This document shows, in pieces, positions 1,636 to 20,222 of a stretch of 20,901 nt of DNA. The position numbers were made by a program, and so were the translations under genes. Below the pieces are notes generated by a model. That model was not told the DNA's origin. It did no database searches and saw nothing but the letters and a program-made list of their open reading frames with translations. Source of the stretch: a virus. How positions within the stretch are numbered: the stretch's first letter is position 1; each line of letters opens with the position of its first letter. Where the stretch lies: positions 1-20,901 of IMG/VR virus record IMGVR_UViG_3300018424_000321, one strand, 5' to 3'.

Positions 1636-3975
1636 TTATACACCACTCAATGCGGGATTATATGTTGACTTTAAGGTATCCGATACGTAGTATTTCGATT
1701 GTGGATCATACTTCATAATATTTCTAAGATCATCAATAACTAATGGCAAATACTCAGGTCTTAAAAGCAATATTTTTCTCTTTTCGTCATTTAGTTTACT
1801 TTCATAATCATAGTTTGTAACTGGGAAAGAACTTGCAGAACCACTTACTCTAATTATGGAAGAAGAACCTGGATCGAAGTACTGTAATTCTTCTGTAATT
1901 TTCTCTTGCCAGTCAGTACCATTCCATTTCCATGTTTTGTTATTTTGGAGATGAAGGTCACCAATTTCCACATTAACAATATCGTCTGGTTCACTAACAA
2001 TTCTAAAGTATGGAGAATTTACATAATTAGATCCCCCATTAGTAACCACAATGCTGGAGATTCCAGTATTTGAGTTCATCTGTACCGTGAATGAGGCAGT
2101 CTTAGAAATTGGAGCAGCGTCTATCGTTATCGTTGGAGCAACGGTGTATCCAAATCCAGCATTCGTTATTGTTATTGATGTGACTATTCCAGATACATTT
2201 ATGAAACTTTCTCCCGTTGCAGTTACTGCTGGATATGGAGAAGAGAAAGTAATTGTTGGACTTACTGTATAACCGATTCCAGAGTTGGTAACAGTTACTG
2301 TAGATACACCACTATTCGTGACAGTAGATGAAGCTTCTGCTACTGAATCCAATCTGTATTGGAATAATTTATCTGGATTTCCACCTATACTTCCAGCAAC
2401 TAAAACCTCTTTTCTATCTGATTTGACGTATACATCTACAGGATCTGTTATTTTGTCACCAATATAGTAATTTGCAATATAACTTCCACTAGAAAGATCC
2501 CATGGAGTTGATAAATCAAATTCTAAAACTGACTGCAATGTAGAACCAACTGCAAATAGTTTGGAACCATCTTCAAAGAAAGTAAATCCAGCTACTTCAT
2601 CTTCTCCACTAAGTCCAGTTATGTTCAGATTTCCAGATGAAGCTCCAATGCTTGAAAGATCCCATGCTGTCGATAGATTATATTGATGAACGGTATCAGC
2701 ACCAGAGATATTTAATATGTAAACAACCGTCCCATCGGACTTTAATCTAACTGCCCCTGGTTCTGGAATAGGAAGTGATTGAGATACCGTTGCAGTAGAT
2801 ATATCCCAGTTAGTTGAAAGTGTATACTTAACTAGACTATAAACACCACTTAATCCACCACAGACAAACATATATTGTCCATCTGCACTGAAATCAATTC
2901 CTGTTGTGTAACTAAAATTCGTACTTACATCGAGACCATTTGCAAAAGAAAGAGTGGTTACGTTCCATGGAGTAGACAAATCATATTCATTAATTAAGGT
3001 TGAACCAAATAAACTTGAAGAATATACTTTACTTCCATCTGACTTTACATACGCACCTTCTACAGAACTTCCTATAGTTGTGCCTCCAATGGAAACATAT
3101 GTTCCAGAAGCAAATACAATCGGTGGGAAAGAAAACTGTATTGTTGGAGAAGTTAATCCATAACCAACTCCAGACTCTAAATCTACAATTGATGTTACTT
3201 GACCACTTTCATCAATTACACACGATGCTGCGGCACTGACAGAAGTTGGAGGACTACTAAAGGTGATATTTGGTGCCTCGTTATATCCTACGCCACCATC
3301 TAAGTTTACTATAGTTGTTACATAGTAGTTGTTTATTACGCATTCGGAAGTCGCATCCGATGTTGCAGGCGGAGCGGAAAGATATACAGTTGGTGTTGTA
3401 TTATATCCTTGACCACTGTTTTCAATGTAGGCACCAACAATAGTTCCACCTGTTCCAACTAATGGGAGTAGACTTGCTCCAATTCCTGCCGATGTAATTG
3501 CTGGAAAAGTGATTCCAGGAGGAACTGAAGTTATCGTTTGATACTCTGGTGCTTTATAAAAAGACTCATCAACTATTAGGTTTCCTGGTAGTACTAATCT
3601 TTTGTAAGAATCATAAACAGCGATTGTTTCGTAGTGATGTATTCCAGTATATGCTTGGTCTCCATATTTGTCTTCTAAAAATTTACCGAGAGAATTTTCA
3701 TCTAAAGGCCATTGAGAATTTAAATCTATAATATTATTCGTTATTAAAATTACCCAGTCTAGTTCCGCATCTTCATAAAATTTTTCTGCAATTTGTTCTG
3801 GTCTTTCGTTTCCAGTGATGGAATAATAATCAAATGCAGAGACTACAGAAACTACATCGTCTCTAATCTTTGCTCTTTTGAATAGATTTTTAACAATAGT
3901 AACCTCATCATTGGACAATTCATTTTTTGTCCTGTTGTTAATTTCAATATTTGGTAATTCGTTGAAGTATCCCAT
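1636..3975 (-). CDS. 53: gp53-like baseplate wedge subunit with large propeller-like insertion
   Basis: The first ~145 residues match the gp53 pattern: YFNELPNI start, a DYYSITGNERPEQIAEKFY segment, DWVILITNNIID, and a KYG...HHYET region. The last ~80 residues (YDYESKLNDEKRKILLLRPEYL onward) look like the gp53 C-terminus. In T4, gp53 (about 196 residues) holds adjacent baseplate wedges together. This protein has 779 residues because about 510 are inserted. The insert contains three GY-x3-P-type beta repeats (residues ~181-290), five propeller-like repeats (~303-545) and three more GY-x3-P repeats (~555-660). The reading frame is intact from the gp53-like start to the gp53-like end, so this is an elaborated protein rather than two fused fragments. 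Its ATG lies one base after the gp48 stop. I infer that the insert projects from the baseplate and may bind a receptor or fibre; that role is not shown by the sequence. Confidence 0.85.
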   Translation of the reverse strand: MGYFNELPNIEINNRTKNELSNDEVTIVKNLFKRAKIRDDVVSVVSAFDYYSITGNERPEQIAEKFYEDAELDWVILITNNIIDLNSQWPLDENSLGKFLEDKYGDQAYTGIHHYETIAVYDSYKRLVLPGNLIVDESFYKAPEYQTITSVPPGITFPAITSAGIGASLLPLVGTGGTIVGAYIENSGQGYNTTPTVYLSAPPATSDATSECVINNYYVTTIVNLDGGVGYNEAPNITFSSPPTSVSAAASCVIDESGQVTSIVDLESGVGYGLTSPTIQFSFPPIVFASGTYVSIGGTTIGSSVEGAYVKSDGSKVYSSSLFGSTLINEYDLSTPWNVTTLSFANGLDVSTNFSYTTGIDFSADGQYMFVCGGLSGVYSLVKYTLSTNWDISTATVSQSLPIPEPGAVRLKSDGTVVYILNISGADTVHQYNLSTAWDLSSIGASSGNLNITGLSGEDEVAGFTFFEDGSKLFAVGSTLQSVLEFDLSTPWDLSSGSYIANYYIGDKITDPVDVYVKSDRKEVLVAGSIGGNPDKLFQYRLDSVAEASSTVTNSGVSTVTVTNSGIGYTVSPTITFSSPYPAVTATGESFINVSGIVTSITITNAGFGYTVAPTITIDAAPISKTASFTVQMNSNTGISSIVVTNGGSNYVNSPYFRIVSEPDDIVNVEIGDLHLQNNKTWKWNGTDWQEKITEELQYFDPGSSSIIRVSGSASSFPVTNYDYESKLNDEKRKILLLRPEYLPLVIDDLRNIMKYDPQSKYYVSDTLKSTYNPALSGV
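1996..2325 (-). repeat. GY-x3-P beta repeats, C-terminal set in gp53
   Basis: This stretch encodes about three imperfect protein repeats (gp53 residues ~551-660). Each runs as a short strand (TVTNSG, TITNAG, VVTNGG), then G-x-GY or a variant, then a PTITF- or PYFRI-like strand. The same repeat type occurs on the other side of the propeller-like block and in gp5. It probably forms small beta modules. Confidence 0.75.
2341..3069 (-). repeat. Five propeller-like repeats inside gp53
   Basis: Residues ~303-545 of gp53 hold five units of about 45-55 residues. The full unit reads roughly as: hydrophobic strand, then (K)SDG(S/T)(K/V)-x-Y/F, a loop, then (Y/F)-x-LST-x-W(D/N)(L/V/I)(S/T). Clear LST-x-W-(D/N) motifs occur at about 333-338, 386-391, 434-439 and 488-493; the fifth unit ends in a degenerate QYRLDS. 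The order and spacing resemble WD40/YncE-like beta-propeller blades of phage proteins. The fold is inferred from the repeat pattern. Confidence 0.72.
3076..3435 (-). repeat. GY-x3-P beta repeats, N-terminal set in gp53
   Basis: Three imperfect units (gp53 residues ~181-300) each contain an SGQGY-, GGVGY- or SGVGY-type turn, a P or SP, and a strand ending in (S/F)xPP. They precede the propeller-like block and mirror the C-terminal set, so the propeller is flanked on both sides by the same module. Confidence 0.75.
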
Positions 3976-3976
3976 T

Positions 3977-5443
3977 TTAGTAACCTATTGATGTGTCGGA
4001 AACTGCGCTTAGATCATTTCTACCAGCTGCAACTGAAGACTGATAATCTTGATCGTAGATTGGTTCCAATTCACAAAAACTTAGTTTCATTGTTGTAGCA
4101 ATTGGCTGACCTTTTTCATAAGCTGCCCAAATACCATTTGGTGTATAATTACAAGCAAAGTCTTTTAGTGCACATGTCTTAAATCTATTTACACCTTCAA
4201 TGAGTTGTGTTTTTTCCGTCATATACTCTAATTTGAAAACATTTGGTGTTCCCAGGAAGAATGATGATGCACCAGACTTTCCTTTTCTCTTTTTCGCTGC
4301 CATTCCTTGTTTAAAGAATCTTATAATTCTTCTGATTTCTCTTGCTTCTTTCTCACTTCTAGCAGTAAGTTGATAATCAAATTCAAAAGTCCTTAAAGTA
4401 ACTCCATTAAACAATAACTCTGTATTAGAGTTTGGAATAATGCCTGCACCTCGAGCAAGAATAGACTCAGCTTCAACACCATATCCACCCATTTTTAAAA
4501 GTTTTGAAGCAAATGCTGGACCAGCTAATAGAGCTAATTCTTGCGATATTGCTCCGCTTGTTATCAACTTAGTTAGGTTATATGTAACCACACCAGCTCC
4601 AGCATTACCAACAAGAGCACCTAGGGCAGCGGAAAGACCAGTACCAGCCATATCGTTCAAGGTTGATGCTGTTGCTGCTGCAGAAAGAGCATTCATACTG
4701 TCTGCTTGCCAATCTACGCTGTTTTTATCAACAACTGTTTTTGGCATAGGAAGAAATACCATACCAATTTTTTGTTTTGCAGAAAAATCAGATTCTCTTG
4801 GTATCCCTCCCGACAAAATCTTTTTAGGATCACCGAAAACTGCTCCGGCTCTTGGTGGTTTATATCTATATTGAGTTATTTGAAATGTGTCCTGTCTCAA
4901 TACGTTCAAATCTAATGGATACGACATTGGTGTTGCAAATATTCTTGTAGCATTATCTACACCAAATGCATCTCCATTGACAGCAAGGGCCTTTGCTTCA
5001 TCTTCTAGATTTCCGATTGCACTTAAAACGTTTCCAATACCACCAAAAGGACCATTATTTACACCACCAAGGCCTCTTCCTTGGCCGTTATTTGATGACG
5101 TTGAATTGCTATTGGGAGTTGAAGATGTTGCTCCAGCTGGACTATTATTCTTTACCCATGGGGGAAGCACGGCATTCTTTGCATTTCCACCGATAGAAGT
5201 GTGAGATTTTTTTACAAACTCTATAGTATTTGAGTGAACAATCGCAAGAGTTTGAGGATTAATATTCAGAGAATTTCCTGCAGGAGTCCAATTACCATCT
5301 TTGTAAATTGGTAAAGTAGTTGCAGAAGCATTAGTGTCGATGATAATTACTTCCCCAGTTGTTGGATCATACTTGAGATCATAGTTGACCCCATTATGAG
5401 TTAAGACATATTGATTTGACTTGTTTATTTTTTGAAGTGCCAC
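3977..5443 (-). CDS. 48: gp48-like baseplate tail tube cap
   Basis: A 488-residue protein assigned to gp48, which in T4 caps the central baseplate and, with gp54, nucleates tail tube polymerisation. The C-terminal half carries the recognisable part: YPLDL...ITQYRYKPPRAG, a Gly/Ala-rich stretch, then a strand pair ending LLFNGVTLRTFEFDYQLTARS followed by a helix rich in Arg/Lys (KEAREIRRIIRFFKQGM). That is the tube-protein-like core shared by gp48, gp54 and gp19. T4 gp48 is about 364 residues; the excess here is an N-terminal beta-rich region and a low-complexity linker (Asn/Ser/Gly, around 108-135). Translation starts at GTG directly abutting the preceding TAA, and no better ATG was seen. It sits between the 175-residue gene and gp53 in the leftward operon. 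Confidence 0.85.
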   Translation of the reverse strand: MALQKINKSNQYVLTHNGVNYDLKYDPTTGEVIIIDTNASATTLPIYKDGNWTPAGNSLNINPQTLAIVHSNTIEFVKKSHTSIGGNAKNAVLPPWVKNNSPAGATSSTPNSNSTSSNNGQGRGLGGVNNGPFGGIGNVLSAIGNLEDEAKALAVNGDAFGVDNATRIFATPMSYPLDLNVLRQDTFQITQYRYKPPRAGAVFGDPKKILSGGIPRESDFSAKQKIGMVFLPMPKTVVDKNSVDWQADSMNALSAAATASTLNDMAGTGLSAALGALVGNAGAGVVTYNLTKLITSGAISQELALLAGPAFASKLLKMGGYGVEAESILARGAGIIPNSNTELLFNGVTLRTFEFDYQLTARSEKEAREIRRIIRFFKQGMAAKKRKGKSGASSFFLGTPNVFKLEYMTEKTQLIEGVNRFKTCALKDFACNYTPNGIWAAYEKGQPIATTMKLSFCELEPIYDQDYQSSVAAGRNDLSAVSDTSIGY

Positions 5444-13202: not shown

Positions 13203-13411
13203 AAAACATAGACGATCACATTTCTAAGGACAGAGAAATTCTTGAAGATCCAACAATTTCTCCACAAGCCCGCAGACACACAGAACAGGAATTAGCTGAT
13301 CTAGAAGCATATAAAGAAAATCATCCTGGTGAGGAACATGATCCCACACCACTAGAACTCTATTGTGATACACATCCAGACGCTTCAGAGTGTAGAGTAT
13401 ACGACGACTGA
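13199..13411 (+). CDS. CP12-like protein (Calvin-cycle inhibitor type) in the tail operon
   Basis: A 70-residue acidic protein. Its C-terminus has C56-x8-C65 with a proline in the middle, followed by RVYDD: PLELYCDTHPDASECRVYDD. This is the pattern of the CP12 C-terminal tail, whose redox-controlled cysteine pair binds GAPDH in cyanobacteria and plants; CP12 then assembles GAPDH and phosphoribulokinase into an inactive complex. Phage CP12 proteins are known in cyanophages. The usual N-terminal cysteine pair and the AWD-x-VEEL core are not seen here; the N-terminal half is a plain charged helix with ARRHTEQELADLEAYKE. It overlaps gp27 (ATGA) and gp5 (TGATG), so it is co-translated with the hub genes. 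A purely structural hub-chaperone role cannot be excluded. Confidence 0.75.
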   Translation: MKNIDDHISKDREILEDPTISPQARRHTEQELADLEAYKENHPGEEHDPTPLELYCDTHPDASECRVYDD

Positions 13412-15654
13412 TGATTGAAGAATCCCTATTAAAATCCAACTTTGTTGGTAAAGATGGTTTTGTCTGGTGGGTTGGTCAAGTCGCTGATCCAAAAGTTTGG
13501 CGAAATGAAAAGACACGAGTTCTTGCCGAAGATAAAGCATGGGGATATAGATGTAAGGTAAGAATTGTTGGATATCATAGTTTTGATAGAAATGAACTAG
13601 ATGATGAAGAGTTACCATGGGCACATGTTTTAACAAGTGCCTCTGATGGTGCTCCCGCTCAAGGTGGATTTGGACAAACTCCTTTGCTTGTTGGTGGAGA
13701 GTCTGTGGTTGGTTTTTTTCTCGATGGGGATGAAGCTCAACAGCCTGTTGTAATGGGATGTTTTCATAGAAGTCCAGCTGTAATAAATGTAGCGGATCCA
13801 AATCCATTTGAACCTTTTACTGGTGCTAAAGGAAATTTAAGCACTGGTGCTACAAGACAAAAGAGACCAGACAAAACAGAGGTAAAAGAAGTTCCACAGT
13901 CAACTGGCAGTGGATCTCAATTTACCATGCAGAGCAACCCAAGTTTTGGTGTCGATGATGGTAGTTTAAATTTAGATCCAGACTGGAAAGGACTTACACC
14001 AAACACTTCTAAAAATGCTGGTGCAGTATGGGATCAATCTTTTACAATAGCTCAAGACAAATTATTCTATGATACTGCTGCAGAAATATCTTTTTTATCC
14101 GCATTTGATAAAGAAGGTCCAGTATCAAATGATAATGGGTGTAGTCAGAATATAATAGGATCTATTACCGCAACTCTTCAAAACTTTATAAAATTTGTTA
14201 ATGGTTTAGAGTCAACTGCTTTTGGATTTATAGATCCTCTTAGAAATAAGATAGTAGATATTAAAGGCCAAATAAGAAAAGTTGCAAGATTAATAGCTTC
14301 GTTGATGAAATTCACTATCAACGGAATGCGAGATAATATATTTCAACTGGTGGGATGTTTATTCAGAGGAATTTCAGCAACTCTACCACAACCAATAAAA
14401 CTTCCCATATCAGAGGCAACTAAAAATATACTAGACTTGATCTTCTGTATTTTTGAAAAATTATTTGGTCCTATCTGGGAATTTATTGCAAAGTTATTGG
14501 AAGGAATGGTGGGAAAATCACCCAATATTCCTAGATGTGCTGCAGAAGAAACGGTGGCAGCACTCATTGCAAAATTGGCAGATATGGTTGATGGAGCATT
14601 ATCAACTGTAATGTCAGGACTTGATTGGTTAGCAAATGGTATTGGTCAGGTTGGGAATTATATAAGAACAGGACTTAATTATATTCAACAAATTGTTAGT
14701 TTCTTAGATTGTGATGCTCTAACTTGCGGACCTATCGTTGCTTGGGATCCATTTGAAGGTGTAAATCTACCCAAGAATGATGATTGGGTTAAGGTATTAG
14801 ATAAGGTAGATCTTCTTGGATCAACTGAAGAAAGTATCGACCTTGCTATTGGATTTTTGTCAGTGTTTGGATCTTCAGATACTCCATTCAAAGATTGTAG
14901 GAAACGTATAGTAAATCCATCAACACAAGAAGACGCTCCACCTATACCATTAGGATCAAGATATTATAAATGTATTCCTCCAGAAATAATAATAAATGGT
15001 GATGGAATAGATGCAGAAGCCAAAGCTGTCGTTTCTATTTTAGATGGTTCTATACTAACAATTAAAGTTATAAATCCTGGAAAAGGATATACCCAACCAC
15101 CATCTATAAACATAGTAGATAATACAAGATATGGAAGAGGTGCAACAGCTAAGGCAAGTATTAATGCATCCGGTGAAATAGAATCAATAGTAATAACAGA
15201 TAGAGGATCTGGTTATTGTCCAACGGATTTAAACGAAATCATTACTGGATTGGGAATAACTTCAATCGGTGTAGGTGGAACAACAGTAATTCTTCCAACA
15301 GGAGGAGGTGGCGGTGTAGGTGGAGTTTCTACAGTTCCTGTTGGTATTGTCACATCAATCTTTATAGACAGACCAGGTATAGGATACACAAGTGGAGATG
15401 TCATTGATGTTGGGGGATGTTCATACTCTCCTGTAGTATCTCCAAGTGGTGGAATTATTAGTGTAGTTTCTTCAGAGTGTTCTCAGGAGTTTATTGACTA
15501 TCCAGAGGTCACCATAAATAGTAACACTGGTCAAGGTGCTCAACTTTATCCAGTGGTGAACTACCTACCACAGTTCGTAGTAGATAATGATTTCATTGGA
15601 GAAAGTAGAGTGGGTATTGGCACAACAATTATAAATGTGGTACAGTGCGTATGA
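13411..15654 (+). CDS. 5: gp5-like hub/spike base protein without recognisable lysozyme domain
   Basis: A 747-residue protein. Residues 1-125 match the gp5 OB-fold: GFVWWVGQVADP, GYRCKVRIVGYHS, PWAHVLTSASDG, then VVGFFLDGDEAQQPVVMGCFHR, the classic gp5/VgrG-like pattern. T4 gp5 (about 575 residues) then has lysozyme and beta-helix domains. I see neither here. Instead there is a linker, an unusual hydrophobic and amphipathic helical region (~244-434), and then GY-x-x-P-type beta repeats (~530-690) with Gly-rich turns (GGGGGVGGV). Cysteines recur through the helical part. It abuts the CP12-like gene (TGATG). The probable job is the hub trimer base; the helical and beta parts may reach the spike or membrane. 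The OB-fold assignment is good; the rest is unassigned. Confidence 0.82.
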   Translation: MIEESLLKSNFVGKDGFVWWVGQVADPKVWRNEKTRVLAEDKAWGYRCKVRIVGYHSFDRNELDDEELPWAHVLTSASDGAPAQGGFGQTPLLVGGESVVGFFLDGDEAQQPVVMGCFHRSPAVINVADPNPFEPFTGAKGNLSTGATRQKRPDKTEVKEVPQSTGSGSQFTMQSNPSFGVDDGSLNLDPDWKGLTPNTSKNAGAVWDQSFTIAQDKLFYDTAAEISFLSAFDKEGPVSNDNGCSQNIIGSITATLQNFIKFVNGLESTAFGFIDPLRNKIVDIKGQIRKVARLIASLMKFTINGMRDNIFQLVGCLFRGISATLPQPIKLPISEATKNILDLIFCIFEKLFGPIWEFIAKLLEGMVGKSPNIPRCAAEETVAALIAKLADMVDGALSTVMSGLDWLANGIGQVGNYIRTGLNYIQQIVSFLDCDALTCGPIVAWDPFEGVNLPKNDDWVKVLDKVDLLGSTEESIDLAIGFLSVFGSSDTPFKDCRKRIVNPSTQEDAPPIPLGSRYYKCIPPEIIINGDGIDAEAKAVVSILDGSILTIKVINPGKGYTQPPSINIVDNTRYGRGATAKASINASGEIESIVITDRGSGYCPTDLNEIITGLGITSIGVGGTTVILPTGGGGGVGGVSTVPVGIVTSIFIDRPGIGYTSGDVIDVGGCSYSPVVSPSGGIISVVSSECSQEFIDYPEVTINSNTGQGAQLYPVVNYLPQFVVDNDFIGESRVGIGTTIINVVQCV
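14140..14712 (+). other. Hydrophobic helical region within gp5
   Basis: Residues ~244-434 of gp5 are rich in Ile, Leu, Phe and Val with regular helix-like spacing (for example SITATLQNFIKFVNGLES, LDLIFCIFEKLFGPIWEF) and several cysteines. This replaces the region where T4 gp5 has its lysozyme domain. It could be a membrane-active or coiled hub element; the function is not known. Confidence 0.55.
15001..15480 (+). repeat. GY-type beta repeats in gp5
   Basis: This part of gp5 (residues ~530-690) has repeated units with GKGYTQPPSINI-, GSGYCPTDL- and GIGYTSGD-type turns and short strands (TIKVIN, SIVITD, SIFIDR). They resemble the GY-x3-P units in gp53, so the same small beta module appears in two baseplate proteins. 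Confidence 0.6.
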
Positions 15655-17081: not shown

Positions 17082-18802
17082 TGGCTACAGGAATAGGTAC
17101 TACAGCTTCACTATCAACTACTAGTGGAGTCTCCGATGCTTCGGTTTATATTCAAAGAGCTTTAGGACTAAGTACTTCAACATCATCTAAGAAGACTGTA
17201 AGAATTATTGACTCCATGAAGAGTGAAATTGAGTCGAAAAAACAACAGTATGAACAAATTAATGATTTATTATTATTACTTGATCTTGATTTGGATATGT
17301 ATTCTGAACTCATATTGAATATAGATGAAAAAATACCCACACCAATCCAAGAAATAAACACAAAAATTACTTCTGTTCAAGATGCATATAGAAACAGAGT
17401 AAATATTGGATGTAAAAATGATCTACATTGGGTATTGCAATCTACTAAAACTGTAAGTGGGATTGATACTCTCGGAAATCCTTTCAGTAAAAACTATTCT
17501 ACTTATAAGACTGAGAAGATACCATCAGAATACAGACAAATTAATTACTATGGAGCAAAATATTATAAAAGACCGAAAGATCGTGATTATGGATCTAGTG
17601 CAGTAAAAGAAATTCCCAGTGCTTCTGTAGGAATAGGTAGTACATATATGGTCTTATTAGACTCAACTACAGATTCAACTGGATTTAGAATCTTATCAGG
17701 AATTCAGACTGGAGATACTATAACAGATTCTATTGAACTGCCAATTATCTTTACAGTTGGAGATTTACCCGAGGTAGTTGGATTTGGATCAACTTCACTT
17801 TTGGGAATAAGTACAACATTTGGTGGATCTATTTCTTTTGGATCAACAATTCTTGCATATGCAGGCGTCAACACTACTTCGGGAATAAACACTGGAGATC
17901 CAATATGGAGAACAGGAATTACTTCTACTGATAGTGTGGTTGTTGGATTCGGTACAACTACTATCTCCATATCTGGCATTAACACTCTAGGAGTTTCAAC
18001 TACTTTCGAAATTGATACAACATCAATAATCCTAAGTAAACCTGCAATAGCTTCCACAAGTGAATCTATTTTCAACGTTGGAATTTATACTTCATATCCA
18101 ACAATCTTTATCAGTGAAACTTCTGCAAGTGGAACTGATGATGATAACTTCTTTGTAGTGAGGCAAACAGGTAGTGCAGAAAACTTTGACCCAGTTACAA
18201 ATGGAGAAAATCCTGTAGAAGTTGGACTTGTTAAAGACTCAAACAAAACTGGTTATGGACACGTAATCTCATTGATTAACAATGGAAGTCCAGATGTAAC
18301 AAAGACTTATACAGAAGATGTTGATCCAGAACCGTCTGTTGGTGCTGGATTTGCTTTCTATTATGAAGGAAATGAGTCTTGGCCAGGAATAAATGTACCT
18401 GTTCTCGGAGGTGTTGGGGGAACCAGTGTGGTTGGATATACTTTCACTTATGCAAATGAAGGACAAACACTAACTACATTAAGTGGGGTTGGTGTAACGA
18501 CTCCTTCGGCAGGTATTGCTTACGCAGGAACTAGTGCTTTAGCTCCGAGTGCTGGTACATGTGCCGCTGCTGATGCCGCAATTTCAACCGCCGAATCTGA
18601 ATTGGAGTCAATAAAAAATACAAATATACCAAAGATTAATGATTACATTACTAAAGCTAGAACATTAAGAACAATAAGAGATAGCAAACAAAGCAAAGCA
18701 TGGGCGTATAGGAGAGGTAGAGGTGCAATAAACAATGATATTAAAGAATTGGAGTCGGATATTGGAACTTTAGAAGACTTGGATTTGGATGAATTCGAAT
18801 GA
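17081..18802 (+). CDS. Large virion structural protein (coiled-coil and Gly/Thr-rich beta region)
   Basis: A 573-residue protein resembling a structural protein of marine T4-like phages, without a T4 counterpart I can name. Residues ~42-105 look like a coiled coil (DSMKSEIESKKQQYEQIND, then LDLDLDMYSELILNIDEK). The middle, about 190-480, is rich in Gly/Ser/Thr/Ile beta strands with recurring GFGST, GISTTF, GVNTTSGIN and GTSVVGY turns. Residues ~493-573 are helical again (AAISTAESELESIKNT, then KINDYITKARTLRTIRDSK), ending in an acidic tail (DLDEFE). This helix-beta-helix layout suits a long fibrous or baseplate peripheral protein. The ATG overlaps the previous stop (TAATG), and its own stop overlaps the next ATG (ATGA). 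Confidence 0.65.
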   Translation: MATGIGTTASLSTTSGVSDASVYIQRALGLSTSTSSKKTVRIIDSMKSEIESKKQQYEQINDLLLLLDLDLDMYSELILNIDEKIPTPIQEINTKITSVQDAYRNRVNIGCKNDLHWVLQSTKTVSGIDTLGNPFSKNYSTYKTEKIPSEYRQINYYGAKYYKRPKDRDYGSSAVKEIPSASVGIGSTYMVLLDSTTDSTGFRILSGIQTGDTITDSIELPIIFTVGDLPEVVGFGSTSLLGISTTFGGSISFGSTILAYAGVNTTSGINTGDPIWRTGITSTDSVVVGFGTTTISISGINTLGVSTTFEIDTTSIILSKPAIASTSESIFNVGIYTSYPTIFISETSASGTDDDNFFVVRQTGSAENFDPVTNGENPVEVGLVKDSNKTGYGHVISLINNGSPDVTKTYTEDVDPEPSVGAGFAFYYEGNESWPGINVPVLGGVGGTSVVGYTFTYANEGQTLTTLSGVGVTTPSAGIAYAGTSALAPSAGTCAAADAAISTAESELESIKNTNIPKINDYITKARTLRTIRDSKQSKAWAYRRGRGAINNDIKELESDIGTLEDLDLDEFE

Positions 18803-19482
18803 CATTATTTTGTTTTGGTGATAGTTGGGCTAGAGGTGCTGAACTTAAAGAATTCGAAAAACCTTTTGTGCATTGGTTGTCTGCGGAGTTAGGTACTTCG
18901 TATGTTAATTATGGGGAGGACGATAATAGTCTAGGTATGGTTTTAAACACAATAGTTTCTAAATCAAAAGAAATAACTGTTGATGATGTTGTTATTGTTA
19001 TAGTACCACCAGACATAAGATGGTACGATGAAGACGAGGAAAACGGATTTTATTCTTTGACCCTTTGGCAAAGAGATGATTATTTTAAATTTTTAAAAAA
19101 TAAAACATTAGAGTGGTTTATATATCATCATGTTTTGTTTATATACGCGATACAAAAAATATTAAATGATATTGGATGTCGTTATGTGATGGCACATAAC
19201 TATGGTCAACTAAATCCTGATGAGTGTAAAAAATATGATCTTTCCATTGATTACTCGAAATTTTTAAGTAATGAAAGTTTAACAAATTTATTGTCAACAC
19301 GTAGATCAGAATGGAAAAGTTATCCTACTCACTTACCTTCTTGTCATAGATATGATGAAGATGGCCCACCGACACATGAATTTTCAGGAATATACTTTGA
19401 GGGGTGTTGTGACCATCCAAATGAATTGGGACATCGAAAAATATCTGAATTAATTTTTAAAAAACTAAATCAATTTAAATGA
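18799..19482 (+). CDS. SGNH-hydrolase-like protein 1
   Basis: A 227-residue protein with the SGNH/GDSL layout. Block I is GDSW at residues 7-10 (catalytic Ser9), and a YGEDDNSLG loop may hold the block II/III Gly and Asn. The C-terminus has CDHPNELGH (His at 206 and 212, Asp at 205) followed by a helix (RKISELIFKKL), as in block V. Families of this type are esterases or lipases that remove acyl groups from carbohydrates or lipids; the substrate here is unknown. The spacing of the Asp and His is a little unusual. The gene overlaps its neighbours by four bases on each side. Its base composition is extremely AT-rich (about 15% GC at 19081-19140), which suggests recent arrival. Confidence 0.7.
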   Translation: MTLFCFGDSWARGAELKEFEKPFVHWLSAELGTSYVNYGEDDNSLGMVLNTIVSKSKEITVDDVVIVIVPPDIRWYDEDEENGFYSLTLWQRDDYFKFLKNKTLEWFIYHHVLFIYAIQKILNDIGCRYVMAHNYGQLNPDECKKYDLSIDYSKFLSNESLTNLLSTRRSEWKSYPTHLPSCHRYDEDGPPTHEFSGIYFEGCCDHPNELGHRKISELIFKKLNQFK

Positions 19483-20222
19483 CCAAGGTAGCTGTGTATG
19501 GAGATAGTTTTGCACATCGACATGACGGTTGGCCTAGTTATCTTGAAAAATTGATGAAAGCGGAAATTACTCTCTTTGGTGTTTCCGGAAGTTCAGTAGC
19601 GTATTCATACCATAAGTTTTTAGAGACTCACGAAAAATTTGATTTAGTATATTTTTTTTGGACAACTCATGATAGGAGTTGGTTAATTTCAACAAAAAAC
19701 AGTATATTTAATACTCTTCGCAGTGATTTAATACATTACACCAGTTTTCAACCACATTGGGACATAAAAGATACTTTTGACCTCCATAGACAAAAATATA
19801 ATTCAAATCTCACCGATGATCTAAAAAAATTTATATCTAATGAAAAAGAAAATTGCCAATTGTATCCAGATAAAAATTTTATAAGTGTTTTTGCTATGAG
19901 AGATAGTGTTAAATTAAGGAGACCAGATTGTATCAACATATCAACCATGGATGAAATTCAAATGGTAGGAACAAAATTAAAAAAAAGTTTTGTGGGAATG
20001 GGAAATATACAAAAACAGGACATGATGCAATTTTCTTCAAAATTTTTAGATGAAGATAGAGATAAAAGACCAAATCATTTAACTATTAAACAAAACAAAG
20101 AATTTGCAGCATATCTGAATCTATCGAAAGAAGGTAAAGTGGATTTGAATAAAACATTCAAAAATCCCTCAAAATATTACAGTATGTCAAAGACCTTCGA
20201 GGAGTCTGGATTTATCCGTTGA
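19479..20222 (+). CDS. SGNH-hydrolase-like protein 2
   Basis: A 247-residue protein starting MTKVAVYGDSFAH, with GDSF at residues 8-11 (Ser10). It has a GVSGSSVAYSYHKF loop as candidate block II and a C-terminal RPNHLTIKQNKEFA segment with a candidate Asp195...His200 pair. The pattern is that of phage SGNH-like proteins. It shares class but little visible sequence with the preceding gene, so the two are not a simple recent duplication. Its start overlaps the previous stop (ATGA). The long AT-rich codon use matches the previous gene. It could modify surface glycans, but a nonenzymatic role or a role in host takeover is also possible. Its stop codon overlaps the -35 box of a candidate promoter. 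Confidence 0.65.
   Translation: MTKVAVYGDSFAHRHDGWPSYLEKLMKAEITLFGVSGSSVAYSYHKFLETHEKFDLVYFFWTTHDRSWLISTKNSIFNTLRSDLIHYTSFQPHWDIKDTFDLHRQKYNSNLTDDLKKFISNEKENCQLYPDKNFISVFAMRDSVKLRRPDCINISTMDEIQMVGTKLKKSFVGMGNIQKQDMMQFSSKFLDEDRDKRPNHLTIKQNKEFAAYLNLSKEGKVDLNKTFKNPSKYYSMSKTFEESGFIR

Follow-up and report, generated by a model that had tools for sequence, protein, structure and literature searches.

gp53 is a conserved baseplate protein with a LysM fold (PMC10811340, PMC10966104). In T4 it is present in six copies and sits in the upper dome round the hub rather than at the periphery (PMC3004832). Propellers are already known from phage adhesion organelles. The receptor-binding protein of Staphylococcus phage phi11 contains a five-bladed propeller that is closed by an N-terminal strand in blade 5 and whose best DALI match is glutamine cyclotransferase, and PhiKZ gp131C is a beta-propeller on a myophage baseplate with a suspected adhesive or enzymatic role (PMC4901313). 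Type I glutaminyl cyclases are also five-bladed (PMC3986218). Here we describe a gp53 gene that carries a propeller of this general kind. It resembles that of phi11 in its five blades, its predicted closure, its nearest-fold match to glutamine cyclotransferase and its location on the baseplate, whereas its scaffold is unusual: the phi11 propeller belongs to a trimeric fibre-like protein with a helical stem and tower, and this one is inserted in a wedge core protein and flanked by GY modules. No long helical stem, as in the homotrimeric fibre scaffold of phi11, was present in the gp53 model. PhiKZ gp131C differs in another way, with seven blades in a peripheral C-terminal domain versus five blades internal to gp53. 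In the part of the open literature covered by our search, we found no paper that treats cyanophages, beta-propellers and baseplates together, nor any five-bladed propeller held on GY arms in the gp53 wedge core.

The gp53 gene and its insert

The window (the whole stretch of DNA analysed, 20,901 nucleotides) is a 20.9-kb virus fragment from the tail region of a T4-like cyanophage, the isolate nearest to it being Synechococcus phage S-SCSM2R (244 kb). One open frame of 779 amino acids, recognized as such in the first-pass annotation, which did not give its strand (minus), was assigned to gp53 by its N-terminal profile, its conserved C-terminal part and its gene neighborhood. Residues 1 to 144 matched phrog_232 (baseplate wedge; 3e-57, 195 bits) and the Pfam family Phage_gp53 (PF11246; 9e-8, 32.4 bits against a curated cut-off of 21), and gp48 (tail tube cap, 3977 to 5443) and the DNA end protector gene lie directly upstream, as in cyanophages, with the neighbors matching phrog_230 and phrog_429. 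Both ends of the protein align with T4-type gp53, and the difference lies in length: 196 amino acids in T4, the value given in the first-pass annotation, or 219 in the closest insert-free form, against 779 here. Measured against the 219-amino-acid relatives (L086 to L097), which are natural gp53s without an insert, the additional segment comprises approximately 558 residues and enters at about residues 117 to 126 of T4 gp53 in the alignment, where it separates the N-terminal part, which bears the LysM fold, from the C-terminal part. Thus, the earlier reading of gp53-like ends framing extra sequence was correct, and its estimate of about 510 residues was too low. The insert consists of three GY modules, a propeller, three further GY modules and a Trp-rich box (Table 1).

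Table 1. Positions of the gp53 gene and of the parts of its product in the window
Feature	gp53 residues	Positions	Strand	Basis or remark
gp53-type baseplate wedge gene	1-779	1636..3975	minus	one open frame, ~558-aa insert
gp53 N-terminal part (LysM-type core)	1-140	3556..3975	minus	phrog_232 and PF11246 matches; 78/140 identities to insert-free L086
Whole insert	~141-698	1882..3555	minus	alignment to insert-free relatives and T4 gp53
N-terminal arm, three GY modules	~164-203, 204-244, 245-287	3115..3474 (covers 168-287)	minus	motif positions and AlphaFold2 model
Five-bladed beta-propeller (predicted)	291-545	2341..3105	minus	repeat HMM, AlphaFold2 model, fold matches
Closing N-terminal strand (predicted), outer strand of blade 5	291-296	3088..3105	minus	DSSP of AlphaFold2 model; closure from strand order
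Blade 1	305-348	2932..3063	minus	AlphaFold2 model
Blade 2, acidic D/E361	356-402	2770..2910	minus	AlphaFold2 model and conservation
Blade 3, invariant R410	406-451	2623..2760	minus	AlphaFold2 model and conservation
Blade 4	461-504	2464..2595	minus	AlphaFold2 model
Blade 5, three strands, invariant D514	514-542	2350..2436	minus	AlphaFold2 model and conservation
C-terminal arm, three GY modules	546-663	1987..2340	minus	matches to phrog_701, phrog_460 and phrog_19630; models
Trp-rich box QNNKTWKWNGTDWQEKI, end of insert	671-695	1891..1965	minus	W682, W684 and W689 conserved in gp53 family
gp53 C-terminal part	699-779	1639..1881	minus	43 of 73 aligned residues identical to insert-free L086

The comparison of gp53 length and content across related phages, proposed with the first-pass annotation, returned 48 full-length insert-bearing proteins of 756 to 782 amino acids (the window included), which are encoded on distinct viral contigs, one of them 248,835 bases long (L013), and are 40 to 99% identical. 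Nearly all insert-bearing relatives fall in a single length class of 776 to 782 amino acids; two longer ones (L066 and L069) have 894 to 896. The isolate S-SCSM2R has a gp53 with the same layout and 41% identity over the whole length. Among the 576 annotated phage records that matched the 779-amino-acid protein, only one reached a query coverage of at least 80%, and the gp53 insert is common in a metagenomic lineage and rare among isolates. On a tree of the gp53 ends, the propeller-bearing rows require a single change of state, which is weakly supported (72/26), and either a gain of the insert or its loss in the bare L086 group would fit such a tree. Additionally, three short gp53s of 284 to 308 amino acids (L083, L085 and L092) have the usual N-terminal part followed by an unrelated C-terminal part of approximately 140 to 170 residues in place of the conserved one.

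Other genes of the window were also noted. Directly downstream of gp53, at 371 to 1615 on the minus strand, lies a gene for a Twitch/SPASM radical SAM protein (NCBIfam NF033640, 333 bits, cut-off 170). Two tandem overlapping genes on the plus strand (18799 to 19482 and 19479 to 20222) carry GDS-type motifs at their start and are possibly SGNH/GDSL-like; neither had a match in PHROG, and the product of the first weakly matched PDB entry 4rw0 (E value of 0.09).

The propeller and its arms

A repeat HMM was built by iteration, with Lentibacter phage ICBM2 and Roseobacter phage CRP-9 providing the seed, and the viral contigs were searched with the Lentibacter propeller as a single-protein query. 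In the window, the HMM found five repeats (residues 299 to 339, 343 to 393, 405 to 441, 456 to 495 and 498 to 543) scoring 22 to 45 bits, compared with a maximum of 5.8 bits in 400 shuffled controls. The count of five SDG...LST-x-WD repeats made from the letters alone therefore holds as a number and not as a motif, since four copies are canonical (DG...LST-x-W[DN]) and the fifth is degenerate (KSDRKEV, with no LST-WD). Each of the 50 long gp53s had exactly five repeats. The same number was found in S-SKS1, LR756508, S-SCSM2R and ICBM2, and 5 plus 5 in a Marivirga protein. In about 57 other proteins of marine viruses, 62 internal arrays had five repeats and the rest 10 or 15 (adjacent propellers), and all of the arrays with deviating counts (1, 3, 4 and 14) were cut by contig ends. 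Arrays of 5, 10 or 15 argue for a closed five-bladed unit, and this evidence is independent of structure prediction.

An AlphaFold2 model built from 33 sequences gave pLDDT values of approximately 90 to 97 over the propeller, with five four-stranded blades made up of 19 strands plus the strand at residues 291 to 296. From the strand order, this N-terminal strand is predicted to complete blade 5 in a velcro closure, and a closed five-bladed propeller in gp53 is thus supported by the model, in agreement with the earlier expectation that structure prediction would show propeller-like closure. The pTM of the full model was only 0.52, so that the model does not fix where the propeller lies with respect to that core of gp53. 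With VIA-align, the best solved fold was the C-terminal domain of YjiK (3qqz; Z score of 21.3, rmsd of 2.8, 225 residues aligned), followed by the glutaminyl cyclase 3mbr (Z score of 20.0, rmsd of 2.8, 214 aligned), and all others had Z scores below 17; a Foldseek search with the full model gave hits to propellers that differed in blade number and superposed poorly. The gp53 propeller thus shares the five-bladed fold of the type I glutaminyl cyclases, while identity to 3mbr and 3qqz is only 13 to 15% and there is no sequence-family match. The window propeller had no match in Pfam (SGL PF08450 and Lactonase PF10282 included) or NCBIfam, whereas 24 of the 31 members of its family matched Pfam SGL, and the free relatives L003 and L004 did so above the cut-off. 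The closed units of YVTN, lactonase and SGL propellers are six- or seven-bladed; the family profile is nearest by sequence to one of these, the archaeal surface-layer YVTN propeller 1l0q (1.9e-19), whereas the arrays described here have exactly five repeats.

On either side of the propeller are three beta-rich GY modules of about 40 residues each, with G-x-GY-x-P motifs at residues 190, 230 and 271 before it and at 568, 609 and, in degenerate form, 648 after it. The first-pass annotation had proposed symmetric GY repeats and a propeller mounted on beta-module arms, and both proposals agree with this arrangement in an otherwise normal gp53. By profile, the modules match a large number of virion and baseplate proteins from cyanophages, and they are found again at residues 515 to 613 of the hub protein encoded at 13411 to 15654 in the window. 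Folded alone, the C-terminal arm reached a pLDDT of 82 (82 to 61 over five models); it had no Foldseek match with an E value below 0.6 and a best VIA Z score of 3.5, an absence that excludes nothing.

Conservation and relatives of the propeller

The dN/dS of the propeller ranged from 0.04 to 0.27 in 13 pairs; the gp53 ends had similarly low values, and the N-terminal arm usually had higher ones. In the 48 gp53 propellers, R410 and D514 were present in every sequence and position 361 was acidic (D/E) in 46, whereas in 98 propellers of other proteins these residues were mostly replaced by F/A/T or G. According to the repeat register, all three positions lie on or just before inner strands and, by the same register rather than by coordinates, they probably face the channel or line a pocket. 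The strong purifying selection and the invariant charged residues seem to speak for a ligand or virion partner that is conserved, rather than for a receptor that changes fast, and they would fit such a ligand or partner at least as well as a host-range receptor site.

Propellers of the same family were found in other proteins. In S-SKS1, one occupies residues ~1096 to 1347 of a 1,571-amino-acid frame near gp6 that matches phrog_2885 (baseplate wedge); this frame (L180, 2683 to 7398) is unannotated in the deposited record. Roseobacter phage CRP-9 gp42, the start of which we take to be tail-fibre-type repeats, carries three, Lentibacter phage ICBM2 gp51 carries one, and in LR756508 the propeller is set between repeats. 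It also appears in tail proteins of unrelated podoviruses and jumbo phages that lack this baseplate. Because the same propeller occurs in tail proteins of other marine viruses, it looks like an exchangeable attachment part, and the distribution points to a mobile five-bladed propeller family common to cyanophages, roseophages and others. Outside the viruses, an 881-amino-acid protein on the chromosome of Marivirga aurantiaca (L179, from 5001) has two arrays of exactly five such repeats and is one of only two matches in a repeat pattern scan of 84,980 genomes.

Different cargo was found in the same setting. In the 675-amino-acid gp53 of S-H9-2 (L002, 3001 to 5028), GY modules flank a non-propeller domain, and residues ~293 to 432 match phrog_30655, a virion structural protein. 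The two longer gp53s noted above (L066, 5001 to 7682, and L069, 372 to 3059) have an extra domain of about 110 amino acids nested in the C-terminal GY arm (residues ~597 to 707 in L066). This domain matches phrog_677 (baseplate wedge/tail fibre connector) and may be cupredoxin-like, as suggested by a weak plastocyanin match (E value of 0.008) and a YYNC..H..M pattern resembling that of type-1 copper proteins.

Possible roles of the propeller

Our preferred account, which we regard as about evenly balanced between right and wrong, is that a gp53 wedge loop carries the GY-propeller-GY cassette and that the cyanobacterial surface offers a conserved ligand to which a face of the propeller binds. 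The loop between the LysM-type N-terminal part and the C-terminal part has received the cassette; the propeller could be plugged into it because its N and C termini would meet at blade 5, and the two GY arms would carry it away from the wedge core. Each baseplate would have six propellers, since T4 gp53 has six copies. The faces with the conserved charged residues would bind a glycan, a polyanion or an S-layer-type component, and a reversible adhesion would thus supplement the one provided by the fibres. An exposed position on the baseplate and binding of a receptor or glycan, both already suggested in the first-pass annotation, are what we infer, and host adhesion is favored by the recurrence of the domain in fibre-type proteins and by the propellers that phi11 and other phages employ in such proteins. 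Since T4 gp53 is located in the upper dome, the cell-facing side may be out of reach of the arms, and the slow evolution of the propeller is unlike that of a fast-changing host-range domain.

The main rival, given that gp53 is a core protein and that the propeller evolves slowly, is a structural or docking role, in which the propeller binds a virion protein (a fibre, a neighboring wedge, gp6/gp7 assemblies or a free decoration protein) and thereby braces or decorates a large baseplate. We consider this possible, at distinctly less than an even chance. Strong purifying selection, charged residues that are specific to the gp53 propellers and the nearly uniform protein length would all be expected of it, these phages generally have enlarged wedge and GY-rich proteins, and gp53 lies in the baseplate core, where its binding triggers wedge association (PMC3004832). 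However, the podovirus and jumbo-phage tail proteins carry the propeller without this baseplate, which indicates that the domain as such is independent of a wedge partner, and in S-H9-2 a different cargo takes its place between the GY modules.

An enzymatic role, as a hydrolase, a lactonase or a glutaminyl-cyclase-like protein acting on the host envelope, appears quite unlikely. The glutaminyl cyclase 3mbr is among the closest folds, and free relatives match Pfam SGL and Lactonase above the cut-off and, by profile, lactonase or paraoxonase chains. However, the propeller of the window has no match to an enzyme family in Pfam, and where it has R410 and D/E361 the free relatives have aromatic or small residues, so that no catalytic set is kept through the family. 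We judge it very unlikely that the domain is a neutral passenger, acquired once and tolerated in the loop: gp53s without the insert do exist in nature and the tree needs a single change of state, but the dN/dS of the propeller is far below 1 in 13 of 13 pairs and its five blades are exactly retained. A chimeric assembly or misread frame, which had been named as an outcome that would overturn the reading, has nothing in its favor and is ruled out for practical purposes, as the independent contigs of the 48 full-length sequences and the isolate S-SCSM2R share the same open frame.

Returning to adhesion through gp53, a broader proposal, which we put forward tentatively and consider rather doubtful, is that the wedge proteins of large marine cyanophages, gp53 among them, are display sites, where GY modules mount interchangeable cargo in the baseplate core and so would add, close to the trigger of contraction, a second layer of host sensing that does not depend on the tail fibres. 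The cargo would be the propeller in the gp53 described here and in a second wedge protein in S-SKS1, the putative cupredoxin-like domain in the two longer gp53s and another domain in S-H9-2. Descriptions of contractile machines present gp53-type LysM wedge proteins as small core components that are conserved universally. Overall, a widespread marine lineage has put a complete and conserved binding-type domain in gp53, which means that the inner wedge can carry cargo, and the gp53 propeller is a testable candidate for early host contact in viruses that are abundant in the ocean and for most of which no receptor is known.
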